A stretch of DNA of 38,236 nt from a virus, in IMG/VR virus record IMGVR_UViG_3300009124_000038, positions 1 to 38,236 of that record. The stretch is one strand, 5' to 3'. The notes beneath the pieces were generated by a model that was not told the DNA's origin, made no database searches, and saw only the letters and a program-made list of their open reading frames with translations. Every line of letters begins with the position of its first letter. Positions within the stretch are counted from its first letter, which is position 1. The translations under genes were made by a program, and so were the position numbers. Below are positions 1 to 38,236 of this stretch, piece by piece.

Positions 1-11
1 ATGAGGTAGTT

Positions 12-311
12 ATGGATCGGCAGAAAGATTTTGAAGTTGCAGTGCAGGTAATGGCGGAGGCTGGCGAGGCTTTCAAGGATTACGTTTACCGAGTAGGTGA
101 TGCAACGTCACAGCTTGCTAATGTGACTCTGTTGTTTGGCATGAACCCAAATGAGTCAATTAGTAGCCGCTCATATCGACTGCGAGCTAACCCAGTTTGG
201 AACTCTGCGCGGGTCACGATTGATCTGCTGTTTAGGCTGGCTGAGAAAGAGCATTGCAAGTCGGCGTATCTGCGTGACCTGAAACGTGCGAGCGAGATGA
301 TTAGCCAATGA
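12..311 (+). CDS. Conserved phage protein of unknown function beside holin (left copy)
   Basis: This is a 99-residue soluble protein with no signal peptide or membrane segment. It looks mostly helical, and the C-terminal half has a Trp and Arg followed by a run of hydrophobic and charged residues (NPVWNSARVTIDLLFRLAEK). I do not recognise a catalytic motif. The start is the ATG directly after the stop of the coiled-coil/TM gene; that gene is visible only in the right-hand copy, where the same ATG is at 36537. The stop overlaps the holin start. Its position between the coiled-coil/TM gene and the holin suggests it belongs to the lysis transcript, but that is inference from position only. The right-hand copy differs by Phe to Leu in the LLFGMN segment. 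Confidence 0.8.
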   Translation: MDRQKDFEVAVQVMAEAGEAFKDYVYRVGDATSQLANVTLLFGMNPNESISSRSYRLRANPVWNSARVTIDLLFRLAEKEHCKSAYLRDLKRASEMISQ

Positions 312-709
312 TGGGCGTCATGGAATTAATCGCCGGGGTGTTTAAGCCTGCGGCAGAATTAATTGACGAGCTTCACACATCTGACGAAGAGCGACTGAAA
401 GCCAAGGGACACCTGCTCGACGTTCAAGCGGCGGCGATGCAACGAGTATTCGATTACGAGTCTGAGACGCTACAAGCGAAGGCTGGGATTGTTCAGGCAG
501 AGGCGAAGTCTGAGCATTGGATTACGGCAACGTGGCGTCCAATTACCATGCTGACATTTTTGGCTTTGGCAGTCGGTGACTCGTTAGGCTGGTTACCAAA
601 CCCTCTGAGAGATGAGGCATGGACGTTACTGCAAATTGGACTGGGCGGATATGTTGTCGCTCGATCTGGCGAAAAGATTGTCACGCAGGTTAGAAAAACT
701 CAGCAGTGA
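308..709 (+). CDS. Holin, GTA-type three-TM family
   Basis: This 133-aa protein probably forms the inner-membrane lesion that lets the endolysin reach the cell wall. The N-terminal 75 residues are amphipathic and charged. The C-terminal half carries hydrophobic stretches around TWRPITMLTFLALAVGD and TLLQIGLGGYVVARSGEK. The SEHWITATWRPITML segment is the hallmark I associate with the Pfam GTA_holin_3TM family, and the length fits. It overlaps the previous gene (ATGA-type junction) and the next gene (GTGA), so the three are probably translationally coupled. A second ATG at 311 is an alternative start. The duplicate at 36833 encodes the identical protein. Confidence 0.82.
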   Translation: MMGVMELIAGVFKPAAELIDELHTSDEERLKAKGHLLDVQAAAMQRVFDYESETLQAKAGIVQAEAKSEHWITATWRPITMLTFLALAVGDSLGWLPNPLRDEAWTLLQIGLGGYVVARSGEKIVTQVRKTQQ

Positions 710-1065
710 ATTATTTTTCAGAAGATGAACTGCGCTGTAAGTGCGGGTGTGGTGTCTATAAGTTTGACCCTGACGTACTCGCCAAGCTGAACCGAATAAG
801 AGTGTCATACGGAGAGCCGCTGATCGTCACTAGCGGATACCGTTGTCTTGATCACCCCGCCGAGAGGCACAAGGGAAACATAGGTGCGCATACCTTTGGC
901 ATGGCGGTTGATCTTGCCGTGTCGCATGAGAAAGCGCACAAGCTATTAAAAGTAGCAATGTACTATGACGTTCCCCGCATAGGTATAAACCAGAGAGGTG
1001 AAGGCAGGTTCATTCATCTCGACTGGTGTGATGAGTTACCTAGCCCCGCCATCTGGTCATACTGA
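706..1065 (+). CDS. Endolysin, M15-type metallopeptidase
   Basis: A 119-aa single-domain peptidase of the M15A / D-Ala-D-Ala carboxypeptidase-like fold, expected to cut peptidoglycan cross-bridges. The N-terminus has a Cys-rich patch (CKCGCG) common in this family. The zinc site is visible: SGYRC followed by H62 and D69 in AHTFGMAVD, and H104 in FIHLDW. It starts at GTG 706, overlapping the holin stop in GTGA. There is no signal peptide, so export must depend on the holin. An identical copy lies at 37231-37590. Although small, it has the complete catalytic core, which is usual for phage M15 enzymes. Confidence 0.9.
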   Translation: MNYFSEDELRCKCGCGVYKFDPDVLAKLNRIRVSYGEPLIVTSGYRCLDHPAERHKGNIGAHTFGMAVDLAVSHEKAHKLLKVAMYYDVPRIGINQRGEGRFIHLDWCDELPSPAIWSY

Positions 1066-1087
1066 AACCCTAGCAAACAGAAGGGTT
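1066..1087. other. Inverted repeat overlapping the early -35 box
   Basis: AACCCT (1066-1071) and AGGGTT (1082-1087) form a perfect 6-bp inverted repeat with a 10-base spacer. It lies just after the endolysin stop, and its right arm runs into the TTGACA at 1086. No T-tract follows on the + strand, so it is a weak terminator candidate. It could be an operator on the early promoter. The same element is repeated at 37591-37612. Confidence 0.4.
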
Positions 1088-1115
1088 GACATCAAAAATG
1101 TAGTCGTGCTAAACT
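1086..1115 (+). promoter_or_regulatory. Sigma70-like early promoter
   Basis: A perfect TTGACA (1086-1091) is followed after 18 bases by TAAACT (1110-1115). It lies in the only intergenic gap between the lysis genes and the early block. It faces a long run of early genes with no obvious terminator for about 2.4 kb. The expected transcript start is near 1122. A second promoter of the same layout is at 8357-8385, and an exact copy of this one is at 37611-37640. Confidence 0.65.
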
Positions 1116-1161
1116 TTATCCCGTGAGCTGATAAATGGCTCTGCCCTGTAGGAGGGATAAA
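1115..1161 (+). promoter_or_regulatory. Early leader with 8-bp inverted repeat enclosing the ribosome site
   Basis: TTTATCCC (1115-1122) is the perfect reverse complement of GGGATAAA (1154-1161). The right arm overlaps the AGGAGGG ribosome site and ends just before the ATG at 1163. A smaller GAGC/GCTC pair (1125-1128 with 1138-1141) lies inside. The leader at 8385-8432 has the same plan with different paired bases. It may be an RNA fold around the ribosome site or a DNA operator; the left arm abuts the -10 box, which favours DNA unless transcription starts further upstream. Confidence 0.55.
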
Positions 1162-1162
1162 T

Positions 1163-1384
1163 ATGACAAGCACACTCAAGCCAAAGTTCTTTTGGACTTA
1201 TCGCAAGGTTATCAATCGGGGCTTTCAGCCCTGCTGGTTTCATGGCGACTACGGTTCAGTAGTTGCATGGATAGAGAAGCGCGGACGCAAGTGGATGCAC
1301 GTCAGGTTTGCTACTGGCGAGCGCAAGCGTATGCCTCTCAGTCAAGAGCGGTACTTCACACCATTCAAATCTAGAAGAGGATAA
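1163..1384 (+). CDS. Small basic early protein, unknown function
   Basis: A 73-residue protein, strongly basic and rich in aromatic residues (FFWTYR, PCWFHGDYG, WIEKRGRKW), with no family I recognise. The ATG at 1163 is chosen because a near-perfect AGGAGGG ribosome site sits 6-10 bases upstream; a longer overlapping frame starting at 1135 lacks this. It is the first gene after the early promoter, so it is probably expressed immediately on infection. That position is typical for host-takeover or anti-defence proteins, but no motif supports a specific role. The right-hand copy differs by His to Tyr and Arg to Lys. Confidence 0.75.
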   Translation: MTSTLKPKFFWTYRKVINRGFQPCWFHGDYGSVVAWIEKRGRKWMHVRFATGERKRMPLSQERYFTPFKSRRG

Positions 1385-1389
1385 AACTC

Positions 1390-1644
1390 ATGGATAACAT
1401 TTCTATCAAAACTCCAATCGTTGCTGTTCCAGAGGAACCACGCAAGAAGCGCAAGTACACCAAGTCAAAAGACGGCAAGCCGAAGACGCTTGGGCCGTTT
1501 GTAGACCCAGAGTTGCTTGAAAAGTTTAATCAGGAGTTAGGCGCCATGAACAGGTCTGACCACTATCCCTTCACAATGAATCACAAGCAGTTCCTTCTGC
1601 ACCTGTTGAAGGTGAACGCCAAGTGGCACAGGAGGATTAACTAA
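1390..1644 (+). CDS. Small early protein, allele A, unknown function
   Basis: An 84-aa protein with an N-terminus identical to its counterpart at 37915 (MDNISIKTPIVA), then a basic patch (RKKRKYTK), then a predicted helical C-terminal half containing DHYPF and HLLKVNAKW. I do not recognise the family. It is separated from the previous gene by five bases and ends in a TAATG overlap with the next. The allele at the other end of the window has exactly the same length, but only about 60% of its residues match (51 of 84 by eye). The flanking genes are nearly identical. Conserved length with divergent surface residues suggests an interaction protein under diversifying pressure, or simple mosaic exchange. 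Confidence 0.75.
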   Translation: MDNISIKTPIVAVPEEPRKKRKYTKSKDGKPKTLGPFVDPELLEKFNQELGAMNRSDHYPFTMNHKQFLLHLLKVNAKWHRRIN

Positions 1645-1838
1645 TGGAGCCGGGGTTCCATCGCAAGGTGTATGAAGAGGTTATCGACAACCTGAATGAC
1701 ATAGGGCAGTTGGTTGACGATTTGTATTCAACTAAAGACAGGGAGGCGCGGGCGCTGTTAGCCCGCCACACCTGCCGCAAGCTGGCGTATGTCCGAGCTA
1801 ACGTCTGGACGATTCAACCAGAGGGGGAAAGCAAATGA
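1644..1838 (+). CDS. Small early protein, unknown function
   Basis: A 64-aa mostly helical protein (acidic first half, RHTCRKLAYVRANVW in the second) that I cannot assign. The ATG overlaps the stop of the preceding gene (TAATG), and GGAGG lies 12 bases upstream. Its stop overlaps the next start, so it is part of a tightly coupled early operon. The first 68 bases recur at 38169-38236 with two base differences before the window ends. Confidence 0.7.
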   Translation: MEPGFHRKVYEEVIDNLNDIGQLVDDLYSTKDREARALLARHTCRKLAYVRANVWTIQPEGESK

Positions 1839-2071
1839 TGTATGACTCAAGAGAGGAGGCGATAAAGGAGGCGCTAGCGGTGCTAACTACCGCGATTGAA
1901 ATCATGGAGGAGGGCGTTGATGAGTCGCGAGAGATTGTTAACGCAACTGAGGATACTGAGTTTACTCAGCCATTCCATTACGGTGTCGCGGCAGGCCGCA
2001 AGTTTGGGATAGACCATTTAAACACCGTCCGGTCAATACTTGCTAAGGAGATGCTAAATGAACAAGTATGA
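1835..2071 (+). CDS. Small acidic early protein, unknown function
   Basis: A 78-residue acidic protein, predicted helical at both ends (SREEAIKEALAVLTTAIEIMEE and GIDHLNTVRSILAKEML). It has no membrane segment, Cys cluster or catalytic motif that I recognise. The ATG at 1835 overlaps the upstream stop and is preceded by GAGGGGGAAAG, a good ribosome site. A second ATG follows immediately. Its end overlaps the next gene by 14 bases. Only its place in the early operon can be stated. Confidence 0.7.
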   Translation: MMYDSREEAIKEALAVLTTAIEIMEEGVDESREIVNATEDTEFTQPFHYGVAAGRKFGIDHLNTVRSILAKEMLNEQV

Positions 2072-2444
2072 TTTGATTGATTTGTTGGATTTAAAGTCAG
2101 AGGTGTGGGATTCACAGGACGGTGTAATCAAGACTGTGATGTTCCGGGAGTTAGATGACTGGCTCAAGGCAGAGATCGTCATAGACTTTGTGAAGAGTGA
2201 TCCAGAGTGGCTGGATGACATTAGCCTGCCAGTGGACGATAAATGCAACTTGCAGTGGGTGCAGGAGGTGTTCAACGAGAAGGAGGATGGGAAGTTGTAT
2301 CGCATGACGCGGGCAATCATTGGCGACTACATAGGTCATCCTGCGCTGGCGAAGCTGGCTAGATTGAAGCAACGCCGAAAGGATGAGGAGTATTGGGATC
2401 AGAGGTCGAATGGCAACGTAAGCCATTTAAGGAGCGTCCAGTGA
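2058..2444 (+). CDS. Early protein, unknown function
   Basis: A 128-aa protein with an acidic N-terminal two thirds (many Asp, Glu and Trp) and a basic C-terminal tail (LARLKQRRKDEEYWDQR). I see no known motif. The start is the ATG at 2058 with AAGGAG eight bases upstream, inside the end of the previous gene. Its last codons overlap the GTG start of the next gene. Its location directly ahead of the recombination and SSB-type genes hints at DNA metabolism, but that is positional inference only. Confidence 0.7.
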   Translation: MNKYDLIDLLDLKSEVWDSQDGVIKTVMFRELDDWLKAEIVIDFVKSDPEWLDDISLPVDDKCNLQWVQEVFNEKEDGKLYRMTRAIIGDYIGHPALAKLARLKQRRKDEEYWDQRSNGNVSHLRSVQ

Positions 2445-3094
2445 TTAGCGACAAACTAAAACAGCTACTGGTTGATGTAGGTGAAGACCCCAGAGACGCT
2501 TGCTGGCAAGTGAGGCAGGGAACCTACGCCATCAAACACAAGGCGCTAGAGCGTATCGCTACTGAGTTAGGGATCACATTCGATGAGCCTAAACCGCTAG
2601 AGGTTGGGCCTGAATTTGTGGCAGTCTGCGTCACCGGACATTTAGGTGATGTTAGCGAGTGGTCTATTGGTGAGGCGTCATCCGCCACTAGCCACAACAA
2701 ATACTTTTGCGCGATGGCAGAGAAGCGGGCAAAGGATCGGGTGATTTTGAAGCTGATTGGGGTTCATGGCGACACCTACAGCGAAGAGGAGGCAGACAGT
2801 TTTAAGGCTGAGGCTGGTCGCATTGAGGAGTTAACAAGGGCGGGCAAGGCGCTTATGGCGCACGTTGAGTTTGTCCGCAACAACTGGAAGGCTGTTGTAG
2901 AGTTAAAAACGGCGATAGAAGGAGATGATGTTACTTACGCCAATCAGCTACATGAAGAGTTTAGTAACGAAGAAAAGGTGCTTCTGTTTGGATTAGCAAC
3001 AACCAAGGGAGGCATTTTCACCACTGCTGAGAGGCAGTATTTTAGAACCAACGAAAGTAACCAAGCTAGAAAGGAGATCAACCGTGGCAAATGA
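2441..3094 (+). CDS. Probable DNA recombination/annealing-associated protein
   Basis: A 217-aa protein. I place the start at GTG 2441, overlapping the upstream stop in GTGA with AAGGAG seven bases before; an upstream TTG in the same frame at 2393 lacks such context. Residues about 60-110 contain WSIGEASSATS followed by YFCAMAEKRAKDRVILKLIG and an EEEAD run. I recognise this pattern from phage proteins encoded next to recombination and single-strand-binding genes (Erf/Rad52-like neighbourhoods). The rest is helical. The following gene looks like an SSB, which supports a role in recombination or replication of phage DNA. The exact family is uncertain and no catalytic residues are claimed. Confidence 0.55.
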   Translation: MISDKLKQLLVDVGEDPRDACWQVRQGTYAIKHKALERIATELGITFDEPKPLEVGPEFVAVCVTGHLGDVSEWSIGEASSATSHNKYFCAMAEKRAKDRVILKLIGVHGDTYSEEEADSFKAEAGRIEELTRAGKALMAHVEFVRNNWKAVVELKTAIEGDDVTYANQLHEEFSNEEKVLLFGLATTKGGIFTTAERQYFRTNESNQARKEINRGK

Positions 3095-3344
3095 TTACCA
3101 GCACAAAGAGAGCAAAGGCGCACTGCACCGCAACCAGTATAAAGAGCAGGAAAAGCACCCTGACTACAGGGGCGGCTTTTGCTGGAAGGGACAGCAACTA
3201 GAATTGTCAGCGTGGCTGAACGAGGACAAGAATGGGAAGAAGTATCTTGGCCTTGAAATTCAGGAGCCGTACAAAAAAAGCGATGCTCCGGAGCCGCAAG
3301 TGCAACAGTCAATCGTAACTGATGAAGAGGATATTCCGTTTTGA
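3084..3344 (+). CDS. Small SSB-like protein
   Basis: An 86-residue protein ending in DEEDIPF. This acidic tip with a terminal Pro-Phe is the hallmark by which bacterial and phage single-strand DNA-binding proteins recruit partners. The middle (FCWKGQQLELSAWLNEDKNG, then KYLGLEIQEP) reads like a short run of beta strands compatible with a minimal OB fold. The length is about half that of host SSB. The start is GTG 3084, with AAGGAGA upstream, inside the end of the preceding gene. Its position between the recombination-type protein and the replication genes fits coating of phage single-stranded DNA. Fold assignment is inference from the tail and context. Confidence 0.6.
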   Translation: MANDYQHKESKGALHRNQYKEQEKHPDYRGGFCWKGQQLELSAWLNEDKNGKKYLGLEIQEPYKKSDAPEPQVQQSIVTDEEDIPF

Positions 3345-3538
3345 TTAATGCAGGTACGCTTTTGAAAGAGGCACAAGAGAGCAGGGGAGTAACCTCTGCT
3401 GAACTGGCGAGGCGTTTGGAGAAAGCGCCTCAACAGATTCACAGGTGGCGGATGCAGGATGACCTGAAGCTGACCACTGTGGTTAGGGCTTGCGAAGCAA
3501 TGGATATGAAAGTATCTGAGTTTATGCGCGAGGAATAA
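3341..3538 (+). CDS. Small XRE-type helix-turn-helix protein
   Basis: A 65-aa protein consisting of essentially one helix-turn-helix domain: GVTSAELARRLEKAPQQIHRWR matches the helix 2-turn-helix 3 layout of the Cro/CI-XRE family, followed by two more helices (TTVVRACEAMDMKVSEFMREE). There is no dimerisation or peptidase extension, so it resembles Cro more than CI. The only plausible start is TTG 3341, overlapping the SSB-like stop as TTGA; this would give coupled, low-level translation. It may repress early transcription, possibly at the paired promoters at 1086 and 8357. That target is a guess from the absence of any other small Cro-like regulator in the window. Confidence 0.65.
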   Translation: MINAGTLLKEAQESRGVTSAELARRLEKAPQQIHRWRMQDDLKLTTVVRACEAMDMKVSEFMREE

Positions 3539-3560
3539 AAAAAGCCCAGCGTTACTGGGC
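3537..3560 (-). terminator. Hairpin with T-tract on the - strand
   Basis: GCCCAG (3544-3549) pairs with CTGGGC (3555-3560) around a 5-base loop. Seven A residues (3537-3543) precede it on the + strand, so only the - strand reads as stem then T-run. It sits just after the HTH gene stop. On the + strand it has no T-tract and would be a plain hairpin. No - strand gene exists to be terminated, apart from a TATAAT on the - strand at 3592-3587. Confidence 0.5.
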
Positions 3561-3604
3561 AAGGACTCATGGGGAGTTCCCTTGCCATTATACAGGAGGA
3601 TTCA

Positions 3605-4027
3605 ATGGCGGCACAGGACTTGCTTGATAGGTTAGAAAAATACAAGCAACTGGGGGAGGGAAAATGGATTGCGGTTTGCCCTGCACACAATGATCTCAGT
3701 CCATCACTGGCGGTAGATGAAATGCCAGACGGGAAGGTGCTATTAAAGTGCTGGTCTGGTTGCTCCGCCCTAGACGTTATCACGGCTGTCGGGCTTGACT
3801 GGTCGACGCTATTTCCAGAGACATCACAGCACTATCCAGCGCCCCTCAGAAGGGCGGGGAGAGGGTCTGTGGACGATTTTATCGTTGAGCTTGGGGAGTA
3901 TGCTAGGGAGTCGGGAAAACGCCTGACAGAGGCCGACAAGAAGGCGTATGCTGACGCGCTCAAAAGAGGCGGCAAGCGCAACGGTTTTGTCGACAAAGTG
4001 AAGCAAGAGTCTGGGGGTTTAGAGTGA
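3605..4027 (+). CDS. Stand-alone primase zinc-ribbon protein
   Basis: A 140-aa protein carrying a primase CHC2-type zinc ribbon: C25 and H28 in CPAH, then C49 and C53 in CWSGC. The linker DLSPSLAVDEMPDGKVLLK is typical of phage primase N-termini. In full primases this domain recognises the priming site and is followed by a TOPRIM catalytic domain. Here the chain ends in a charged helical tail with no TOPRIM, and no other TOPRIM protein is seen in the window. I place the start at ATG 3605 because AGGAGG lies five bases upstream; an in-frame ATG at 3569 lacks this. The loader-like gene follows with a GTGA overlap. It may help host primase (DnaG) load on phage DNA. Confidence 0.7.
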   Translation: MAAQDLLDRLEKYKQLGEGKWIAVCPAHNDLSPSLAVDEMPDGKVLLKCWSGCSALDVITAVGLDWSTLFPETSQHYPAPLRRAGRGSVDDFIVELGEYARESGKRLTEADKKAYADALKRGGKRNGFVDKVKQESGGLE

Positions 4028-4638
4028 AGTGGTTCAAGCACGATTCAAACGCAAGCATTGATGCAAAGCTGAAGCGGTTGCGTCTCAAGTATGGGATGGA
4101 GGGTTACGGCGTCTACTGGTATTTGCTGGAGTGTGTGGCAAGAACAGTAGAGCCGCACAATCTGACATTTGAGCTTGAAGAAGACGCGGAGCTTATCGCG
4201 GCAGAGGTGAATATTCACCGTGACGTTATCGAAGAGATGATGAGGTTCATGTGCGAGTTAGGTCTTTTTGAGAACGCGGAGGGCAGGGTAACTTGCTTAA
4301 AAATGGCAGGCCGCTCAGATGAGTACACTCTGAAGTTAATGCGCAACGCGAATAGTGTCCCGACAAACTCCGGACACAATCCGGAGAAAGTCCCTCCTAT
4401 AAGAATAGAAAAGAAGAGAATAGAACAGAAAGGGATGAAAAAGCCCACGCTAGAACAGGTGAAGGCTAGGTGTCGGGAGATGAATTACCCCGGCAGATTG
4501 GCGGCACGTTTCCACAACTATTACGAGTCGAACGGCTGGAAGGTTGGCAAGAATCCGATGAAGTCTTGGCAGGCCGCGTTAGCGAATTGGAATAGCAAAG
4601 ATCAGGGCCAGTCCGGTAACGAGGAGTATGTGCGATGA
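4024..4638 (+). CDS. Replication initiator / helicase-loader-like protein
   Basis: A 204-aa protein. The first 100 residues (MKWFKHDSNASIDAKLKRLRLKYG, then GYGVYWYLLE) match the Lin1244/Lin1753-like (DUF4373-type) N-terminal domain found in phage replication proteins, which has a winged-helix character. A variable basic linker follows. The C-terminus (NYPGRLAARFHNYYESNGW, then MKSWQAALANW) is the DnaD/DnaT-like tail that contacts the helicase or DNA. It starts at GTG 4024, overlapping the primase ribbon gene, and its ATGA end overlaps the helicase gene. The gene order initiator-helicase resembles lambda O-P or phage DnaD-DnaB pairs, so it likely binds the origin and loads the helicase at 4635. 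Confidence 0.72.
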   Translation: MKWFKHDSNASIDAKLKRLRLKYGMEGYGVYWYLLECVARTVEPHNLTFELEEDAELIAAEVNIHRDVIEEMMRFMCELGLFENAEGRVTCLKMAGRSDEYTLKLMRNANSVPTNSGHNPEKVPPIRIEKKRIEQKGMKKPTLEQVKARCREMNYPGRLAARFHNYYESNGWKVGKNPMKSWQAALANWNSKDQGQSGNEEYVR

Positions 4639-5612
4639 ATCAGATACCAAGGCGTGAGGTAGAGGATTTTACCGACAAAGACTTGCAAGAGATTTACGCG
4701 CAGGTCGAGGATGTCGACGTTGTAGGCATCGACGCATTTAAGGATGAGTTTCTGCAATCAATTGAAGAGTCGCAAGAGGCTCATGGCATACCACTACCAT
4801 TTCCAAACACTGAAGACTTGGTGCGCCTCCGCAAGTCGGAGGTAACGGTGCTGGCGGGGATCAACGGACACAAAAAGTCGACGCTGTTATCTCAGGTGCT
4901 GGTGCATTGCGCGAAGGAACACAAGGTGGGCTTGGCATCATTTGAGATGCGGCTGACCGAGACAGCGAAGCTAATGTGCAAGCAGGCGGCGGCAGTCGAC
5001 ACGGTTGCGCGTGACTTTGCTGAAGACTTTGCTGAATGGGCGAGAGATCGGATTTGGTGGTACAGGGCAATAGGCTCAGTCCGCCCGATACAGGCACTAG
5101 GGTGTATCGCCGCGATGGCTAAACGTGGCTGTGATGTTGTTGCTTTAGACAACTTGCAGTTTATGTCGGTCACTGAAGACACTGAAAAGGAGCGGTTATT
5201 TTTTAACCAGCTTATCGCTCTGGCTGATGCGCTCAAGATTCACATTATCGTGGTGCATCATGTCCGCAAGCCGCAACACGGCGGCGATGAATATGTGCCG
5301 ACACGCTTTGATGTTAGGGGCGGGTCAACAATCACCGATCAGGCACACCTGCTGTTGATAGCGTGGCACAACAAGCTGAGGGTGAGGGCAAAGAAAAAGA
5401 TAGAGGAGTCTATACCGCTCACTGACAGAGAGAACAGCGAGATAGAAAAGGGCTTTGATTTTAAGTTGATCGTAGCGAAGCAAAGACACCATTCATTCGA
5501 GGGTACGCTTTCGCTGTTTGAGGGGCCGGGGCAAACTTTTAAAAGAAAAGAAAACGCGATGAGCATCAAGGTAGATATACCGAGGAGGCGTCATGCTGAT
5601 AAAGTTGTCTAA
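4635..5612 (+). CDS. Replicative DNA helicase, SF4 (DnaB/gp4-like)
   Basis: A 325-aa RecA-fold helicase that would unwind phage DNA at the fork. Motifs in order: Walker A region G75-INGHKKS-T83, Walker B-type VVALDNLQF, an H-motif IIVVHHVRK, GGSTITDQA near motif H4, and IVAKQRHH, the usual arginine-finger strand. The N-terminal 60 residues are too short for a full DnaB N-domain. In the Walker A the usual Gly before the catalytic Lys is itself Lys (HKKS instead of the HGKS seen in phage relatives). The gene overlaps the loader-like gene by ATGA and overlaps the next gene by 20 bases. Assignment to SF4 is firm; whether the altered P-loop is active is not visible. Confidence 0.85.
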   Translation: MNQIPRREVEDFTDKDLQEIYAQVEDVDVVGIDAFKDEFLQSIEESQEAHGIPLPFPNTEDLVRLRKSEVTVLAGINGHKKSTLLSQVLVHCAKEHKVGLASFEMRLTETAKLMCKQAAAVDTVARDFAEDFAEWARDRIWWYRAIGSVRPIQALGCIAAMAKRGCDVVALDNLQFMSVTEDTEKERLFFNQLIALADALKIHIIVVHHVRKPQHGGDEYVPTRFDVRGGSTITDQAHLLLIAWHNKLRVRAKKKIEESIPLTDRENSEIEKGFDFKLIVAKQRHHSFEGTLSLFEGPGQTFKRKENAMSIKVDIPRRRHADKVV

Positions 5613-6120
5613 ACAGGATGTTCATTCCTCTGAGTTGATGGGGGCCGACACGGTAAAGCTATGCGAAATGCAGGGCTTCCCTCCTCGCCTAGAAAATGAA
5701 AGGCAAAGCCGAGTTGAAGCAAACGTGTTTGGATTTAAAGCAGAGTTTGCCGTGGCAAGATTATTTAATACAAACCTACCAGTTGTGAACGTGTTAACAG
5801 ACGGGGGCATCGACTTGTGGTTTTGCGGTATTAGCATTGATGTGAAGTTCACAAACAAAGAGGTTGGCCCGCTCATTTTCGACAACATGGAAAAATTCAA
5901 AGCAGACGCGGCTGTGTTGGTAGGCAGAACAAAAGACGATGATGTTATGAGGATCAATGGCTGTGTGAGCAGAAAAGTGTTCGGGGAAGAGTCTTACGCG
6001 CACGACTTTGGCTACGGCACTAGGCTGGTCATGGACGTTGGTCAATTACGCCCCGTAGAGTGGCTCTGGCGTAACGCAATGGAATACAAATTCAGTCAGG
6101 GGGTCAGTAGCCGTGGGTGA
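5593..6120 (+). CDS. PD-(D/E)XK-fold nuclease-like protein
   Basis: A 175-residue protein with a recognisable PD-(D/E)XK core: E51 in GFKAEFAVARLF, D74 in DGGIDLWF, and D83-x-K85 in ISIDVKFT. This is the arrangement of restriction-endonuclease-fold phage nucleases and Holliday-junction resolvase-like proteins. The C-terminal part (YAHDFGYGTRLVMDVGQLRPV) resembles the cap that follows the core in several phage members. The ATG at 5593 has GAGGAGG upstream, within the helicase 3' end. Together with the neighbouring NinB-like gene it suggests recombination or resolution of replication intermediates. Substrate specificity cannot be read from sequence. Confidence 0.68.
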   Translation: MLIKLSKQDVHSSELMGADTVKLCEMQGFPPRLENERQSRVEANVFGFKAEFAVARLFNTNLPVVNVLTDGGIDLWFCGISIDVKFTNKEVGPLIFDNMEKFKADAAVLVGRTKDDDVMRINGCVSRKVFGEESYAHDFGYGTRLVMDVGQLRPVEWLWRNAMEYKFSQGVSSRG

Positions 6121-6547
6121 GTTCTGGATAGTCAGGGATAAAGATCAACTACGTCAGAGGCTGGAGTATTTTGCTGACTACCTAGAGAGCGAGTGGAATT
6201 GGGAACACCCTGTAGAGTGGAAAGTAAAACGATATGTTGACCGCCGCTCTCTTTCTCAAAACGCGCTGTTTCACGTTTGGTGCAGGGAGATGGCAGAACA
6301 CTTTGCATCTCGCGGCGCTGACATCACAGAAGCAAAAATGAAGGAGCTACTAAAGTACAAGTTTTTAGGCACAGAAAATAGGATAATAGGCAAGACTGTA
6401 ATCCCTGACCAAGTGCGAGAGACAAGCGGGCTGGATCGGGGTGAGATGATGGACTTTATGGATCAGGTTATGGCGTGGGGCTTGGATCATGGATGCAAGC
6501 TGTCATGTCCACAAGAATCGGAGTATATGCAATTAAAGGGGGGCTAA
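6113..6547 (+). CDS. NinB-like recombination protein
   Basis: A 144-aa protein whose centre, RRSLSQNALFHVWCREMA (residues about 44-61), matches the RSxxQN...W motif of the lambda NinB (Orf) family, which binds single-stranded DNA and assists recombination-dependent replication. The length is close to NinB. It begins at GTG 6113, overlapping the PD-(D/E)XK gene by eight bases, and is followed two bases later by the next gene. A NinG-like HNH protein lies 1.4 kb downstream, so the pair recalls the lambdoid nin region. Overall similarity beyond the central motif is modest. Confidence 0.65.
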   Translation: MGEFWIVRDKDQLRQRLEYFADYLESEWNWEHPVEWKVKRYVDRRSLSQNALFHVWCREMAEHFASRGADITEAKMKELLKYKFLGTENRIIGKTVIPDQVRETSGLDRGEMMDFMDQVMAWGLDHGCKLSCPQESEYMQLKGG

Positions 6548-6548
6548 A

Positions 6549-7709
6549 GTGGATAAAATATTGTTACAGTTTTGCTCAACAGAAAAACAGAACGCGGTGC
6601 TATCTCTTCATTTAGTTGAAGGGCTTTCTCAATATGAGATAGCTCGCCGCTTGAATATGTCGCGAAGCGCGGTGCGGGATCATATTAAAGCCGTTAAAGA
6701 CAAAGCGGCCCGACAAGGATATAGCCCGGATCATGACTGGCATCGTCCGGTTCCAGACGGTCACAAAATCAAGGGCGTATCGACGTTTTATGATGAAGAC
6801 GGGAGGGCAGTGCGGCAATGGGTCAAGTCGCAGACTGACGAACAGCGACAGTTTGAAATCCTAGTAGAGCGGCTAGAGTCTGCGCAAGAAGACCTTACAA
6901 GGTTCAAGCCAACCCCGCCGCCAAAGTCATGCGATGACAATCTGCTGTCACTGCTAACGATCACCGACTTTCACTTAGGTATGTACGCCTATGAAGCGGA
7001 GACGGGCGATGACTGGGATGTTGGTATAGCCAGAGATGTTTTTCTTAACTCAATTAATGACATGATCAAGTCAGCCCCGAAAGCTAAGACCGGGGTGCTT
7101 TGCCAATTAGGTGACTTCCTGCATTGGGACGGTATTCTTAGCGTCACGCCGCAGTCCGGTCACATATTGGACGCGGACACCCGCTACGGAAAGCTGGTAG
7201 AAATGGCAATGTCTGTGATGACTGAGGCAGTGACGATGATGCTCCGCAAGTTTGAGCAGGTGATTGTTGTATCGGCAGAGGGCAACCATGACATCTCAGG
7301 GAGCATTTGGTTGCGTAAGCACATTAAGCATATGTTTGGTGATGAGCCTCGACTGCAAGTGATCGATAACGATTTCCCGTATTACGCTTATCTTCATGGC
7401 GAGACGATGCTGGGGTTTCATCATGGTCATAAGGTGAAGCTGGCGCAGTTGCATAAGTTGTTTGCGAGTGAGCCGCGCTTCAGGGAGATGTGGGGCAAAG
7501 CGAACTACACTTACATTCACACCGGGCATTATCACCATGAAAGATTAATCGAAGACGGTGGAGCGATTGCAGAGATGCACCCGACATTGAGCGGGAGAGA
7601 TGCTTACGCCGCGAGGGGAGGCTGGGTGTCCCGAAGAGGGGCAAAGGTAATTACCTATGACAAAACTGCTGGCGAAGTTGCCAGAGTCACCGTGAGGCCA
7701 AGAACATGA
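6549..7709 (+). CDS. HTH-metallophosphoesterase fusion protein
   Basis: A 386-aa protein with two parts. Residues about 22-50 form a sigma-factor/LuxR-like helix-turn-helix (GLSQYEIARRLNMSRSAVRDH). Residues 138-330 form a calcineurin-type metallophosphoesterase: D140-x-H142, GD 188-189, GNHD 245-248, HHGH 291-294 and GHYH 326-329. All five metal-site motifs are intact, so it should hydrolyse phosphodiesters or phosphomonoesters; the closest functional class is Mre11/SbcD-like nucleases or phage phosphoesterases. No SbcC/Rad50 partner is present. The GTG start at 6549 has a GGGGGG ribosome site. The HTH suggests the enzyme is brought to specific DNA. The ATGA junction with the next gene implies coupling. 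Confidence 0.82.
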   Translation: MDKILLQFCSTEKQNAVLSLHLVEGLSQYEIARRLNMSRSAVRDHIKAVKDKAARQGYSPDHDWHRPVPDGHKIKGVSTFYDEDGRAVRQWVKSQTDEQRQFEILVERLESAQEDLTRFKPTPPPKSCDDNLLSLLTITDFHLGMYAYEAETGDDWDVGIARDVFLNSINDMIKSAPKAKTGVLCQLGDFLHWDGILSVTPQSGHILDADTRYGKLVEMAMSVMTEAVTMMLRKFEQVIVVSAEGNHDISGSIWLRKHIKHMFGDEPRLQVIDNDFPYYAYLHGETMLGFHHGHKVKLAQLHKLFASEPRFREMWGKANYTYIHTGHYHHERLIEDGGAIAEMHPTLSGRDAYAARGGWVSRRGAKVITYDKTAGEVARVTVRPRT

Positions 7710-7957
7710 TTCCTGTTTTTAAAGTTGATTTACCAAAAGGCGAGGCGCTGTTGCTGACGGCAACAATCGGGGGCGCGACCACAAACCCGACTAACCCAAA
7801 TCAGACAGACGTTTACACCGACACCTTTCCCGAAGGCTTGACAATCAAGATGCCGATAGATGAGTTTTTTGATTTATGGATGACTTGCTACAACACAGAG
7901 TTGGAAGAGATCAATGCGATTGTTTTTACTCCGGACAAGGATTTGGATTTTCACTGA
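7706..7957 (+). CDS. Small protein of unknown function
   Basis: An 83-aa acidic protein, probably beta-rich at the N-terminus (FKVDLPKGEALLLTATIGG) and helical at the C-terminus. It has no recognised motif. It overlaps the upstream phosphoesterase gene (ATGA) and the downstream HNH gene (TGATG), so it is firmly part of the early operon. No function can be proposed beyond association with the recombination genes around it. Confidence 0.65.
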   Translation: MIPVFKVDLPKGEALLLTATIGGATTNPTNPNQTDVYTDTFPEGLTIKMPIDEFFDLWMTCYNTELEEINAIVFTPDKDLDFH

Positions 7958-8340
7958 TGGCAGTTAAAAGAGATACGGCAGACATTTGGTTCAGCAAAGC
8001 GGTGCGAGCCAGAGACGGCAGGTGTCTGCATACGGGGAGAGAGGATGTTTTAGAGTGCGCCCACATTTATGGGCGCCGAGCAAAAATTCTAAGGTGGAGT
8101 TTGGATAATGCAGTGACACTCACCCATGCGAGCCATCGTTACTTCACAGAAAATCCGATTGCGTTTCATGACTGGCTGGAGTCGACGCTGGGCGAGGGAC
8201 ACATGGCAATCCTCAGAGAAAAGTCGCAGGGCATCATGAAGACAACAGACGCACTGCGTAAAGAAATAGCCAAACACTACCGTGAGGAGCTAAAAAAATT
8301 CCACGATGACCCCGAATACCGCATGGTTTCTTGGAATTAG
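7957..8340 (+). CDS. NinG/Rap-like HNH protein with degraded zinc knuckle
   Basis: A 127-aa protein. I start it at ATG 7957, which overlaps the previous stop, rather than at the longer in-frame 7876. The core ECAHIYGRR...RWSLDNAVTLTHASHRYFTENPIAFHDW aligns by eye with the HNH fold of phage NinG/Rap and related recombination endonucleases (AH, N and H in the right order). In typical members a CxxC lies ahead of this core and a CxxCH ends it. Here these read CLHT and THASH, so three of the four structural zinc cysteines are gone. It may use a zinc-free variant fold or be catalytically altered. It is the last gene before the second early promoter. Confidence 0.62.
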   Translation: MAVKRDTADIWFSKAVRARDGRCLHTGREDVLECAHIYGRRAKILRWSLDNAVTLTHASHRYFTENPIAFHDWLESTLGEGHMAILREKSQGIMKTTDALRKEIAKHYREELKKFHDDPEYRMVSWN

Positions 8341-8356
8341 CAGGTAAACAAAAGTG

Positions 8357-8385
8357 TTGACGTTAGCCTAATAAGAGCGTATCTT
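8357..8385 (+). promoter_or_regulatory. Sigma70-like promoter upstream of ardC-type gene
   Basis: TTGACG (8357-8362), a 17-base spacer and TATCTT (8380-8385) lie in a 93-base gap between the HNH gene and the antirestriction gene. The layout, the following ATCCC block and the ribosome-site sequence match the promoter at 1086. The two were probably regulated together. Confidence 0.62.
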
Positions 8386-8432
8386 TGATCCCATCGCTGG
8401 CGCTGTTGCCAGTTTCCTGTAGGAGGGATCAA
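8385..8432 (+). promoter_or_regulatory. ardC-type leader with 8-bp inverted repeat and inner hairpin
   Basis: TTGATCCC (8385-8392) is the exact reverse complement of GGGATCAA (8425-8432), which overlaps the CTGTAGGAGGGAT ribosome site and ends at the ATG. Inside, CTGGC (8397-8401) pairs with GCCAG (8408-8412) over a 6-base loop. Compared with the 1115-1161 leader, the outer stem keeps pairing although the second and third base pairs from the end have changed on both arms. Spacers are 31 and 32 bases. Either a ribosome-site-masking RNA fold or a two-site DNA operator would give this. Confidence 0.58.
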
Positions 8433-8433
8433 C

Positions 8434-9297
8434 ATGAAAAAGAAAGCTGACGCTTACGAAGCCATCACTAACCACGTTATCGCTCAGTTGGAGTCTGTTG
8501 ACTTAGGTAGCTGGGAAAAGCCGTGGATCAACCTTGGCGGCGCTCGCCCAGTATCAATGTCTACTGGCAAGCACTACAACGGGATTAACCGTTTTATCCT
8601 GATGACTCAGCCTTACTGCGATAGCCGCTGGGGTACTTACAACGCTTGGAAGAAAGAAGGCGGTCAGGTACGCAAGGGTGAGAAGGGTACGCCGATCATT
8701 CTGTTTAACTTCATCGAAGAGAAAGATGAGAAGACTGGCAAGATTAAAACCATCCCCTTCAGCAGACTGTGGTGGGTTTTCAATGCCGAGCAGGTAGATG
8801 GCGTTGAGGCGCAGGTAGAAGCGGAGCCTCTCGCGCTTGCGGAGCGACTCGCTAACGCCGAAGAGTTTATCGGTAACACTGGCGCTCACATTCAGCATGG
8901 CGGTGACCGCGCTTGCTACAGTCCTGCGCTTGATCACATCCAGCTTCCCCCGGTAGAGGCTTTCAAATCTACTCAGGCATATTACGGGACTGCGCTTCAT
9001 GAGTTGGGCCACTGGACTGGTCACAAGTCACGGTGCGAGCGCGACTTGTCAGGTGGCTTTGGTTCAGAAAGCTACGCCTTTGAAGAGTTGGTTGCTGAGT
9101 TGACCGCTACGTTCCTCTGCGCCGATCTGAGTATTGAGAACCTGCCCCGCAAGGATCACGCTCAGTACATCAAGGCTTGGCTGAAGGCGCTCAAGAATGA
9201 CAAGCGAGCTATCTACAAGGCGGCGAAGCTGGCCCAGCAGGCATCTGACTTCTTGGGTGACCTGCAAGCCCCAGAAAGCGAGGCAGAAGCGGCTTGA
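8434..9297 (+). CDS. ardC: ArdC-type antirestriction protein
   Basis: A 287-residue protein with the two-domain ArdC architecture. The N-terminal part (residues about 5-120: ITNHVIAQLESVDLGSWEKPW, NGINRFIL, KGEKGTPIILFNF) is the ArdC ssDNA-binding domain. The C-terminal part is a zincin-like domain with H189-ELG-H193 in ALHELGHWTGH, and a downstream YAFEELVAELTATFLCADL helix that supplies the third ligand in this family. The length is typical. ArdC proteins protect incoming DNA from host restriction. It has its own promoter and an optimal ribosome site, consistent with strong, very early expression. Codon choice here looks more host-optimised (few rare codons) than in neighbouring small genes. 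Confidence 0.9.
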   Translation: MKKKADAYEAITNHVIAQLESVDLGSWEKPWINLGGARPVSMSTGKHYNGINRFILMTQPYCDSRWGTYNAWKKEGGQVRKGEKGTPIILFNFIEEKDEKTGKIKTIPFSRLWWVFNAEQVDGVEAQVEAEPLALAERLANAEEFIGNTGAHIQHGGDRACYSPALDHIQLPPVEAFKSTQAYYGTALHELGHWTGHKSRCERDLSGGFGSESYAFEELVAELTATFLCADLSIENLPRKDHAQYIKAWLKALKNDKRAIYKAAKLAQQASDFLGDLQAPESEAEAA

Positions 9298-9500
9298 TGA
9301 CTGGCGCTAGGCTTGCTGGCAAGAAATTTGCCTTGAGCAAAAAGGAGGTAGCAAAAGCCCTTGAGCTTGCTGAGGAGGGCCATTACTGGTGGCAAATCGC
9401 AGTGATGCTTGGGGTGGCTAGTTCAACGCTGATGCGGTACGTTAGAGGCGCAGAGCGTTACGGTTATTCGTTTTGGTCTGAGAATCCAAGGGAGGATTAA
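9297..9500 (+). CDS. Small helix-turn-helix protein
   Basis: A 67-aa basic protein. The segment LSKKEVAKALELAEEGHYWWQIAVMLGVASSTLMRYVRG is a clear resolvase/Hin-type helix-turn-helix (recognition helix ASSTLMRYVRG), with nothing else attached. I use ATG 9297, which overlaps the ardC-type stop in ATGA. It may be a small DNA-binding regulator of the second early unit, or a DNA-structure factor. No target is visible. Confidence 0.65.
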   Translation: MTGARLAGKKFALSKKEVAKALELAEEGHYWWQIAVMLGVASSTLMRYVRGAERYGYSFWSENPRED

Positions 9501-9668
9501 ATGCAACTGACTACCGGGGAAGTGATTGAAAAAGATGAGACGCTCATCAAAGACTTAAAGTCAGCGCAAAACCGCGCTTACGGCGACGATGATGAATGGG
9601 GCAAATTCCAAGACCTGATTGAGGAGGCGGAGAAGCGCATCCAGTTTTTCCGCACCTTCAGTGACTGA
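9501..9668 (+). CDS. Small acidic protein, unknown function
   Basis: A 55-aa ORF read directly from the sequence: it begins MQLTTGEVIEKDETL and ends FFRTFSD. It is acidic and almost wholly helical, probably a short coiled coil. The ATG at 9501 follows the previous stop immediately (TAAATG), with GGAGG eight bases upstream, an excellent ribosome site. Its last eight bases overlap the GTG start of the next ORF (GTGACTGA). No family is recognised. Confidence 0.65.
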   Translation: MQLTTGEVIEKDETLIKDLKSAQNRAYGDDDEWGKFQDLIEEAEKRIQFFRTFSD

Positions 9669-9858
9669 GGCGCAACACTATCGGGCAAAGACCGCGATGT
9701 ATCGCGCCATCTGCCGCAGTATGATCATCAGGTTAGAGGATGATGAGTCTGTGATGAGAGACTTGGTGCAAAAGTTTTGGGAAGCGGAAAGCAGTCCGGA
9801 GTACAATAGCCCAAAGTGGCAGGAGATCAACGGGATACCATTTGATGGAACCAATTGA
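9661..9858 (+). CDS. Small protein, unknown function
   Basis: A 65-aa protein (MTEAQHYRAKTAMYRA...) with a helical, mixed-charge sequence. I choose GTG 9661, which overlaps the upstream stop, over an in-frame TTG at 9619 that would lie inside the previous gene. The ribosome site is weak, so translation may rely on coupling. The end overlaps the next gene. No function can be assigned. Confidence 0.55.
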   Translation: MTEAQHYRAKTAMYRAICRSMIIRLEDDESVMRDLVQKFWEAESSPEYNSPKWQEINGIPFDGTN

Positions 9859-10060
9859 CGATGAAATGCTGGATTCGTTTGTTGACCAGAGATATCACTG
9901 GAAGACGCTGACCCCAGTAAACCAAATGAAAATTGCAGTTGAGCTAAAAAAGTTGAGATACATAAACAACAAAATGTACGGCTTTATCGCTGAGACGCTG
10001 GATGACAAAGCAGTGTGCCGCGAGTATCGGAGATTGCTAATTGAGGGAGACAAAGATTGA
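9845..10060 (+). CDS. Small protein, unknown function
   Basis: A 71-aa protein starting at ATG 9845 inside the tail of the previous gene. It is helical, acidic at the N-terminus (MEPIDDEMLDSFVDQ) and basic in the centre (VELKKLRYINNKMYGF). I see no motif to assign. It is one of a chain of overlapping small ORFs between the antirestriction gene and the terminase genes, a region phages often use for host-interaction proteins. Confidence 0.6.
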   Translation: MEPIDDEMLDSFVDQRYHWKTLTPVNQMKIAVELKKLRYINNKMYGFIAETLDDKAVCREYRRLLIEGDKD

Positions 10061-10073
10061 ATACATAGGCTTT

Positions 10074-10247
10074 ATGGTTTTGATCTGCCTTCTCTTTCTT
10101 GGGTTGGTAGGCGGCGAAGACTTAGAAGAAGAAATTCGATCCGCAGAAACATATTGCACTATGGTAAAATTGCACCGGGAGTCATCCGGAGAGAATGGGT
10201 GGCCTGCTTTCCGAGGAGAGGAACAGTGCTTAGAGACAAGCCCCTAA
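10074..10247 (+). CDS. Small single-TM membrane protein
   Basis: A 57-aa protein with one N-terminal membrane segment (MVLICLLFLGLVGG) and an acidic, Cys-containing C-terminal part (AETYCTMVKLHRESSGENGWPAFRGEEQC). The YCxMV...GWPxFxGxxxC spacing recurs in small phage proteins I have seen beside early genes, but no function is established. The start is uncertain: ATG 10074 is the first ATG. Upstream in the same frame are a TTG at 10041 and an ATT at 10056 that has GAGGGAG seven bases before it and would overlap the previous stop. The two Cys suggest a periplasmic disulfide if the C-terminus is outside. Confidence 0.55.
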   Translation: MVLICLLFLGLVGGEDLEEEIRSAETYCTMVKLHRESSGENGWPAFRGEEQCLETSP

Positions 10248-10386
10248 CCTCCTACGGCGAGCCGTGGCGTCGACAGAGTACAGGTGCGGGGGCAATGGCG
10301 GCGCAGAGAACTCGCCTTCAAGCGATAGTATTGTGTGGTGCGCTTCCAGATCATTTGGTGTCTGTACTCAACCACGGCACTTTATC
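10248..10386. other. Non-coding gap between early and packaging genes
   Basis: This 139-base stretch has no convincing start codon with a ribosome site in any frame, although open frames run through it. It contains the inverted repeat ACGGC-GA-GCCGT (10254-10265) and a G-rich run. TGGTAAAAT, an extended -10-like element, lies 80 bases upstream (10159-10167). It is the largest untranslated gap in the window and sits just ahead of the packaging genes. It is a candidate place for a regulatory leader or a packaging site, but nothing in it is diagnostic. Confidence 0.4.
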
Positions 10387-10596
10387 ATGAACCAAACCGT
10401 GAGCATTGATTGGTTTCCAGTAGCGTATGGCGAGATGCCGCGTGAAGAGGGGACTTATTTGGTCGCCTTTAGTGACAATACTGTTGAGTCTTTTCCGATT
10501 GAACAACGCGACATCCAAGATGGTGAAATTAGGGTGGGTTCTATTTACGGTCAGTATTGGGCTAGAGGTATTCCACATCCTGATGATGTTGAGTAG
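10387..10596 (+). CDS. Small DUF551-like protein
   Basis: A 69-aa acidic protein (MNQTVSIDWFPVAYGEMPREEGTYLVAFSDN...). The opening W-x-PV...MPxEEGxYLVAF pattern resembles the DUF551 family of small phage and prophage proteins, in which IPVSERLPEEGEYLV-type sequences recur; their role is unknown. I use ATG 10387 because residues before it read as junk and the homology-like region begins there. The ribosome site is weak. It is the last gene before the terminase block and is separated from it by a promoter-like element. Confidence 0.55.
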   Translation: MNQTVSIDWFPVAYGEMPREEGTYLVAFSDNTVESFPIEQRDIQDGEIRVGSIYGQYWARGIPHPDDVE

Positions 10597-10605
10597 TGCT
10601 AGAAT
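10597..10605 (+). promoter_or_regulatory. Extended -10 promoter candidate before terminase genes
   Basis: TGC-TAGAAT (10597-10605) is an extended -10 element located 35 bases before the small terminase start. No good -35 box is visible, as allowed for extended -10 promoters. A transcript would start near 10612 and read the packaging genes. Confidence 0.4.
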
Positions 10606-10639
10606 AGTCGTGGCGTAACAAATACTTGGGCATAAAGTA

Positions 10640-10954
10640 ATGGCTAGGACAAAAGGCGCAGTTAATCGAAACAAGCAGTTCCTGCTGACGCGCTTGCAGG
10701 ATATGTACGGTGAGGACTTTCATCCGATTATGCGCATGGCAGAGCAGGCCGTAAGGCTTCATGACTTAGCGCAGTCAGGTGACGCTTCCGACATCAAGCA
10801 AAGCATAGACGCTTGGGACAAAATCGCGCAGTACACTGAGCCTAAGCTGAAGGCCACCGAAGTTGATCTGTTGAGTAGCGATGGCAGTATGTCTCCGACA
10901 GTGATTGAACTAATCCCGCGACTGCCAGAAAACAATGACGATAGCTACGATTGA
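10640..10954 (+). CDS. terS: Terminase small subunit
   Basis: A 104-aa protein directly upstream of, and overlapping, the large terminase. The basic N-terminus (ARTKGAVNRNKQFLLTRLQDMYG, then DFHPIMRMAEQ) and the helical centre match short TerS-type proteins of SU10-like and marine podoviruses; the acidic tail may contact TerL. TerS recognises the packaging site on phage DNA and stimulates TerL. Its start is ATG 10640, with only weak Shine-Dalgarno complementarity (GGGC). The 20-base overlap with the next gene fits co-translation. Identification rests on pattern recall plus position, so moderately sure. Confidence 0.72.
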   Translation: MARTKGAVNRNKQFLLTRLQDMYGEDFHPIMRMAEQAVRLHDLAQSGDASDIKQSIDAWDKIAQYTEPKLKATEVDLLSSDGSMSPTVIELIPRLPENNDDSYD

Positions 10955-12212
10955 GCTTCCGCCAAAGCTAGTCGATCTCTTTGCGGGCGAGGCTCGCTGG
11001 AGGTGCGCTTACGGCGGCAGAGGATCAGGCAAAAGCCGTAGCTTTGCGATCATGGCGGCAGTCAGAGGTTACGTCTGGGGCAACGCAGGCAGAAGCGGGC
11101 AGATACTCTGCGCCCGTGAGTTTATGAACTCGCTGAAGGATTCATCATTTAATGAGGTGGCAGGCGCTATCGCATCGTATGACTGGCTCGCTGATTACTA
11201 TGAGGTGGGCGATACGTTTATCCGGAGTAAGGATGGCAACGTAGAGTTTACGTTCGCTGGCCTGCGCAGGAACCTAGACAGCATCAAGTCAAAGGCGCGT
11301 ATCTTGCTGTGCTGGGTTGATGAGGCAGAGTCAGTAAGTCGCATGGCTTGGGATAAGCTGGAGCCTACAGTGCGAGAGGATGGCTCTGAGGTGTGGGTAT
11401 CGTGGAACCCAGAGAGCAACCTGTCAGAGACTCACAAGCGGTTCAGGGCTGACCCGCCAGACGCCGCTAAGGTTGTCGAGATCAACTGGCGTGACAATCC
11501 ATACTTCCCTAACGTGCTGGATCAGGTACGTCTCAATGACTTTGAGAAGCGCCCTGAGACTTACGATCACATTTGGGAAGGCTCATTCCTCACCCACCAT
11601 GAGGGCGCGTATTACTCGCTAGAGATGCGTGACGCTAACGCGCAGGGCAGGATCACCGCAGTGCCGTATGAAACGGCATCGCCAGTGGTCACGGCTTGGG
11701 ACTTGGGCATAGGTGATACAACAGCGATTTGGTTTGCGCAGAGGATAGGCCCAGAGACGCGGCTGATAGATCACTATGAGACATCTGGTGTCGGCCTTGA
11801 TCACTACGTTCGGGTGCTACAGGAAAAGGGCTACGTTTACGGTCAGCACATCCTGCCGCATGACGTTCGGGTGAGGGAGCTAGGATCGGGTAAGTCACGG
11901 CTAGAGACTTTGCACTCGCTAGGCTTGCAGAATATCCAGATTGCGCCCCAGTTAAATGTAGACGATGGGATACAGGCGTCACGCTCTCTGCTGGCAACGT
12001 GCTGGTTTGATGCTGAGAAATGTAGCCACGGCATTGAGGCACTGCGGGCGTATCACCGTGAGTATGATGACAACAACATGGTGTGGAAAGGCAGGCCAGC
12101 GCATGACTGGTCGAGTCACTCAGCAGATGCGTTCCGTTACCTAGCGGTTGGATACCGTCAGACATCAGACTGGGGCGAACCGATTCGCCGTAACCTGCAA
12201 GGCATTGTCTGA
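10935..12212 (+). CDS. terL: Terminase large subunit
   Basis: A 425-aa packaging motor and nuclease. The ATPase part has Walker A GGRGSGKS at residues 27-34 and Walker B ILLCWVDEAE with D129-E130, followed by the coupling-type segment VWVSWNPES. The RNase H-like nuclease part has D256 in AWDLGIGDTT, a middle acidic segment ILPHDVRVRE and the late DWSSHSADAFRYLA. These match Terminase_3 (PBSX/P22-like branch, Pfam Terminase_3 and 3C). It is full length and intact. It moves DNA into the prohead through the portal and cuts concatemers. The headful branch affiliation is consistent with a circularly permuted map, which this window suggests. Confidence 0.95.
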   Translation: MTIATIELPPKLVDLFAGEARWRCAYGGRGSGKSRSFAIMAAVRGYVWGNAGRSGQILCAREFMNSLKDSSFNEVAGAIASYDWLADYYEVGDTFIRSKDGNVEFTFAGLRRNLDSIKSKARILLCWVDEAESVSRMAWDKLEPTVREDGSEVWVSWNPESNLSETHKRFRADPPDAAKVVEINWRDNPYFPNVLDQVRLNDFEKRPETYDHIWEGSFLTHHEGAYYSLEMRDANAQGRITAVPYETASPVVTAWDLGIGDTTAIWFAQRIGPETRLIDHYETSGVGLDHYVRVLQEKGYVYGQHILPHDVRVRELGSGKSRLETLHSLGLQNIQIAPQLNVDDGIQASRSLLATCWFDAEKCSHGIEALRAYHREYDDNNMVWKGRPAHDWSSHSADAFRYLAVGYRQTSDWGEPIRRNLQGIV

Positions 12213-36534: not shown

Positions 36535-36536
36535 TT

Positions 36537-37590: not shown

Positions 37591-37610
37591 AACCCTAGCA
37601 AACAGAAGGG

Positions 37611-37686
37611 TTGACATCAAAAATGTAGTCGTGCTAAACTTTATCCCGTGAGCTGATAAATGGCTCTGCCCTGTAGGAGGGATAAA
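37611..37686 (+). promoter_or_regulatory. Early promoter and leader, right copy
   Basis: Copy of 1086-1161: TTGACA at 37611-37616, TAAACT at 37635-37640, and the 8-bp arms TTTATCCC (37640-37647) and GGGATAAA (37679-37686). All are unchanged although the neighbouring gene two positions downstream has diverged. Confidence 0.65.
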
Positions 37687-37687
37687 T

Positions 37688-37909: not shown

Positions 37910-37914
37910 AACTC

Positions 37915-38169: not shown

Positions 38170-38236
38170 TGGAGCCGGGGTTCCATCGCAAGGTGTATGA
38201 AGAGGTTATCGACAACCTGAATGACATTGGTCAGTT
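38169..38236 (+). CDS. Small early protein, partial (window end)
   Basis: The first 22 codons of the copy of the gene at 1644-1838, cut off by the end of the window. The visible residues match the left copy; two bases differ near the end. The gene is partial only because the window stops. Confidence 0.68.
   Translation, partial: MEPGFHRKVYEEVIDNLNDIGQ

Follow-up and report, generated by a model that had tools for sequence, protein, structure and literature searches.

In the transposons IS10 and IS50, RNA that reads through from outside the element forms a fold that conceals the transposase start, whereas transcripts begun at the element's own promoter have a free start. The leaders that we describe here do not belong to transposons, and their closest described counterparts are in phage T4, where the genes e (lysozyme), soc and 49 carry translation-blocking hairpins with an internal late promoter: long transcripts hide the Shine-Dalgarno (SD) sequence and AUG, and the gene's own promoter, lying within the DNA of the 5' arm, makes an mRNA without that arm (PMC3014915). 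Similarly, hairpins at the homing endonuclease genes I-TevI, I-TevII, I-TevIII and segB of T4 and mobE of Aeh1 sequester the ribosome-binding site in upstream transcripts, whereas transcripts begun at the late promoter next to the gene leave the site free (PMC2988022).

We analysed a 38,236-nucleotide stretch of viral DNA (the window, meaning the whole of that stretch) in which two leaders have much in common with the gene e type. In both, a predicted stem pairs the SD in RNA arriving from upstream, and the leader's own promoter is placed so that, from the predicted start, the mRNA would lose the 5' arm. The differences lie in the genes and promoters involved. The T4 genes are late genes, silenced on early and middle read-through, whereas the window leaders have host-type sigma70 early promoters, one at a late-to-early junction and the other before ardC, and in the clade of related phages the lock recurs in many leaders. 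The window leaders do not have a T4 late promoter (TATAAATA) on a late gene; they have sigma70-like promoters before early-type genes, so the arrangement would work like that of T4 e but not as a T4-type late switch. We infer that the T4 timing would be reversed, with early genes kept silent on the transcripts of others. The I-TevI group differs in serving mobile endonucleases from late promoters, and its sequences are unrelated to those of the window leaders.

Inverted repeats in the two leaders

Leader 1 contains the 8-bp inverted repeat TTTATCCC/GGGATAAA with a spacer of 31 nucleotides and leader 2 the 8-bp repeat TTGATCCC/GGGATCAA with a spacer of 32, both exactly where the original prediction had placed them (Table 1). 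It was also correct that the left arm touches the -10 box in each leader, as the first base of the arm is the last T of the hexamer; the right arms overlap the end of AGGAGG. The prediction had further counted two compensated pairs between the leaders, which was one too many: only a single pair differs (T-A in TTTATCCC vs G-C in TTGATCCC), so that covariation inside the window amounts to one event. Since both leaders contain AAACA-AAG-GTTGAC, ATCCC and CCTGTAGGAGGGAT (and also TTnATCCC), their sequences suggest that they are probably copies of one cassette. After shuffling, an 8-bp repeat reaching the SD-AUG block appeared in 0.3% of leader 1 sequences and 0.8% of leader 2 sequences, two values that, given the shared ancestry, are not independent and should not simply be multiplied. 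Nor is the third exact copy of the leader 1 repeat independent of leader 1, because it lies within the end overlap of the window, where positions 1-1400 are ~99% identical to 36526-37925 and divergence sets in after about 1413. The overlap as a whole (1-1711 and 36526-38236) resembles that of a circularly permuted genome; being near-identical to ~1400 and clearly divergent from there on, it looks as if two population variants had been joined.

The gene before leader 1 encodes an M15 peptidase that is probably for lysis, and we read this site as a late-to-early junction. Leader 2 stands in front of ardC, the product of which should be required immediately on entry. Elsewhere, the window encodes a 386-aa protein (6549-7709) with a sigma70 region-4-like HTH at its start (Pfam E 1.9e-07).

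Table 1. Positions in the window of the genes and leader features discussed in the text.
Feature	Coordinates	Strand	Basis
First gene past the junction, 73 aa, relatives in 5 viral contigs	1163..1384	+	
ArdC-like anti-restriction protein, 287 aa	8434..9297	+	PHROG 7245 E 8.3e-85; Pfam ArdcN, MPTase-PolyVal
Leader 1, -35 box TTGACA	1086..1091	+	promoter call
Leader 1, -10 box TAAACT, TG before it (extended -10)	1110..1115	+	promoter call
Leader 1, left arm TTTATCCC, between -10 box and predicted start	1115..1122	+	
Leader 1, predicted transcription start G	1123..1123	+	inferred from distance to -10 box
Leader 1, small hairpin within mRNA	1125..1141	+	RNA folding
Leader 1, Shine-Dalgarno AGGAGG	1150..1155	+	
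Leader 1, right arm GGGATAAA	1154..1161	+	
Leader 2, -35 box TTGACG	8357..8362	+	promoter call
Leader 2, -10 box TATCTT	8380..8385	+	promoter call
Leader 2, left arm TTGATCCC	8385..8392	+	
Leader 2, predicted transcription start A	8393..8393	+	inferred from distance to -10 box
Leader 2, hairpin within mRNA	8396..8413	+	RNA folding
Leader 2, Shine-Dalgarno AGGAGG	8421..8426	+	
Leader 2, right arm GGGATCAA	8425..8432	+	
Leader 1 copy in end overlap, not independent	37640..37686	+	

Promoter geometry and predicted RNA folding

Both promoters are of host type, TTGACA-18-TAAACT in leader 1 and TTGACG-17-TATCTT in leader 2; these are consensus calls, sigma70-like with -35 boxes. Each left arm takes in the final base of the -10 box and stops just short of a purine (G1123, A8393) that stands where a start would usually lie. 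The left arm is thus upstream of the predicted start, and a transcript from the local promoter would not contain it. On this model the stem over the SD is one that can form in read-through RNA only and not in the promoter's own mRNA.

When the left arm was present, RNA folding predicted a three-way junction with the SD paired in both leaders, the 8-bp stems covering the SD in the predicted read-through RNA. The predicted cost of opening the SD was 8.5 kcal/mol in read-through RNA and 5.6 kcal/mol from the local start for leader 1, and 9.2 and 3.6 kcal/mol, respectively, for leader 2; loss of the left arm lowered the cost in 6/6 variants (the 2 window leaders and the leaders of four relatives). 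The proposed masking of the ribosome site by an RNA fold is supported, with the restriction that the left arm is the -10/discriminator region, which limits the fold to read-through RNA. Hairpins like those between start and SD (1125-1141 and 8396-8413) are present in most clade leaders, where they may serve to stabilise mRNA 5' ends. No terminator-like sites were found on the + strand of 1-12000.

We think it likely that each window leader is a read-through lock built into the promoter, in which the SD/AUG region has its reverse complement in the DNA that reaches from the -10 box as far as the last base ahead of the start. RNA entering from upstream genes would contain both arms, its SD would be paired and its translation blocked, while RNA begun at the local promoter would start just past the left arm, lack the stem and be translated. 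With read-through RNA locked and local RNA free, synthesis of the gene product would require firing of the gene's own promoter. Leader 1 would in this way silence the first early gene on late transcripts running past the lysis gene, and leader 2 would make ArdC synthesis depend on the early promoter of ardC itself. Start sites, read-through and translational effect are all proposed here; the purpose, we infer, would be to keep early genes silent on transcripts that are not their own.

If transcription truly started further upstream, the main mRNA would have both arms and the three-way junction would be a regulatory or protective RNA, such as a thermosensor or a ligand or protein site. Inner hairpins in both leaders would suit this, as would the folding of leader 2, which in the presence of its left arm is better than that of shuffled sequences (z -2.55). 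For leader 1 plus left arm there is no such gain over shuffles (z -0.19), a point against the lock. Yet a good -35/-10 pair puts the start past the left arm, the -10 box improves to TAATAT in a near relative (L162), the pairing signal in the clade ends at the predicted start (see below), and Rfam 15 covariance models gave no match at gathering score in 1-12000. We consider an upstream start improbable.

Single-arm changes in near relatives

One or both leaders are present in a few contigs that belong to the window's species or lie very close to it. In L162, the left arm of leader 1 is TTTGTCCC, which pairs with GGGATAAA through a G-U pair (duplex -14.7 kcal/mol), and the new, improved -10 box lengthens the stem to 11 pairs. 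The stem is also kept in L163, with left arm GGGATAAG (-10.8 kcal/mol), and in leader 2 of L006/L007, where GGGATTCAA leaves a one-base bulge (-9.3 kcal/mol). Arms varying independently in relatives had been named as evidence against a paired element; single-arm changes do occur, but the RNA stem still forms, by G-U pairing or around a bulge. Such changes break the DNA symmetry and retain the RNA stem.

A third copy of the leader cassette precedes a 283-aa gene after ardC (L083:3375, L086:3342) and has a weak, degrading lock. This third leader of the window's species is weak, and in L086 its pairing is lost. A search of 2.9 million viral contigs for the leader motif ATCCC..GTAGGAGGGAT found it as a leader in this species only; other matches appear to be chance. 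Megablast against annotated phages gave no close relative.

Pairing across the clade

To ask whether leaders of related phages pair with themselves better than with one another, we selected leaders blind to complementarity: genes with an SD had to follow a gap of 60-350 nt, and the best sigma70 promoter within it was used. We then paired each leader's own SD-AUG block with the 14 nt reaching from its -10 box to the start, and compared the result with that for segments swapped in from other leaders. Arms were paired directly, because aligning the leaders with MAFFT put the left arms in the wrong place and made the pair count on that alignment unusable.

Own pairing beat swapped pairing in 20 leaders (-7.09 vs -5.12 kcal/mol; 0/5000 permutations as good), and control segments from the same leaders, in the -35/-10 spacer or the 14 nt past the start, gave no signal. 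With 26 clade leaders the difference had a z of -4.3. It held when the window's species was left out (n=22, p 0.002; p 0.0003 to 0.005 across the tests without this species), and the held-out tests were weaker once leaders were clustered at 65% (p 0.03-0.11). A replication set, gathered later through the M15 peptidase gene rather than through leaders, gave p 0.0006 (n=19), with control windows at p 0.69 and 0.11. In the combined set of 51 non-redundant promoter-leaders, z was 6.0 with G-U pairs credited and 4.7 without, and 5.4 (p 0.0002 or lower) minus the window's species. As G-U credit strengthens the signal, it favours RNA over a DNA operator or DNA symmetry. Sliding windows peaked at -6..+8, counted from the end of the -10 box (z 5.4, or 4.4 with the window's species left out), and showed no signal ahead of that box or past the start. 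Restricting swaps to orthologous leaders in four families gave p 0.0015, or p 0.013 without the window's family; family F1 alone was not significant. A base-composition effect was rejected by the swapped partners and control windows. By this measure T4 gene e, which has AATACCT/AGGTATT at its late promoter in the same geometry, scored -11.9.

The check originally suggested, covariation in related leaders, thus came out in favour of pairing: judged by sequence comparison, the pairing is maintained in related phages with changed letters. The computations give the pairing, its position, its upkeep in relatives and the predicted change in SD accessibility. A whole-fold measure of locking across all leaders was not significant (p 0.16), because many leaders, likely false promoters among them, show no lock, and in phages related more distantly a number of strong promoters (L120, L121, L161, L250 and L280) had none.

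That the pairing might be a functionless by-product, two copies of one promoter-SD cassette having a discriminator that complements the SD by accident, would agree with the upstream and SD sequence common to both leaders, the single compensated pair in the window, the one-arm changes in relatives and the leaders from which pairing is absent. It fits poorly with the own-versus-swapped signal in the clade, in held-out leaders and in the replication set, located exactly at -10 to start, and we regard it as unlikely, though not negligible.

Arms with new letters in the same geometry

In individual leaders, the arms had no sequence in common and the geometry was the same: TAAAGTTCACTC/GAGTGAGTTTTA in L316, AGTCTCC/GGGAGATT in L364, TTACTCCC/GGGAGTAA in L343, TATGGTCG/CGACCATG in L153, ACCTC/GAGGT in L102 and TCGCCTC/GAGGCGA in L303. 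CATACT pairs with AGTATG plus the SD in L244, AATCATTCGTTCTG pairs with CGGAGGGAATGACT in L164, and L275 also has new arms in the geometry of the window leaders. Leaders at the M15 junction are alike upstream and mid-leader, yet both arms differ (ATCTGC/GCAGAT in L332, ACTCCCC/GGGGAGT in L347).

Some leaders had further features. At ~1900-1990 of L356, the left arm of an 8-bp pair (CCCTGTTG/CAACAGGG) lies over the -35 rather than the -10 box, still outside the local transcript. The distant relatives L149, L153 and L157 have several copies per genome of a promoter-leader cassette (TTGACA-16-TATGGT ... GGGAGAGAC ATG), with the lock in some copies and absent from others. L302 and the post-M15 leaders (L332, L333, L338, L341, L343, L347, L356, L357 and L364) have a palindrome, TGTTCCACGTGGAAC or TTCCATGTGGAA, near the predicted mRNA 5' end. 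It resembles the ParB-binding parS site, TGTTNCACGTGNAACA, and could be a decoy, a ParB-type operator or merely a 5' hairpin.

We considered the suggestion that the arms are a two-half-site operator, bound by a phage repressor that blocks the promoter. The left arms do contact the -10 box and the start, TTnATCCC is common to both window leaders, and a Cro/C1-type HTH protein, the suggested candidate, is encoded at 3341-3538. However, an operator should keep one half-site and a fixed spacing, and in relatives neither holds: arm sequences are wholly different among related leaders, at spacings of about 10 to 45 nt. In addition, the signal rises with G-U credit (z 4.7 to 6.0), one-arm changes in near relatives break the DNA symmetry, and the arm motif is absent near the Cro-like gene, matches to TT[GT]ATCCC in the window being confined to the leaders and to coding sequence at 4857, 6135 and 13152. 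The operator idea, with its Cro-like candidate, is unsupported, and we give it little credence.

Unrelated phages and wider meaning

In unrelated phages the effect peaked at the same position but was weaker (z 1.9, p 0.034 for long leaders; z 3.6 for all), and by the duplex energy measure z was -0.2 to -1.8. The weaker effect at the same peak suggests that the design is enriched in the clade rather than unique to it. Of two annotated phages with distantly related terminases, the isolate Paracoccus phage KLEP18-1 had no clear lock, and Sulfitobacter phage pCB2047-A had none save for one borderline leader (p 0.048).

With considerable reserve, we put forward a general rule for small, terminator-poor phage genomes: in an early promoter, the -10/start region may evolve to be reverse complementary to the SD and start codon, as in CATACT/AGTATG, TATGGT/ACCATG and TAAAGTTCACTC/GAGTGAGTTTTA. 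If the rule is true, each early gene would be insulated from read-through and translated from its own promoter only. A lock known from a handful of T4 late genes would recur, in fast-evolving form, in the early promoters of an uncultured aquatic phage clade, and perhaps more widely, given the weaker signal at the same peak in unrelated phages. As a sequence signature, the lock would also allow real promoters and start sites to be recognised in raw phage DNA, and it suggests how compact, terminator-free genomes may separate their genes in time.
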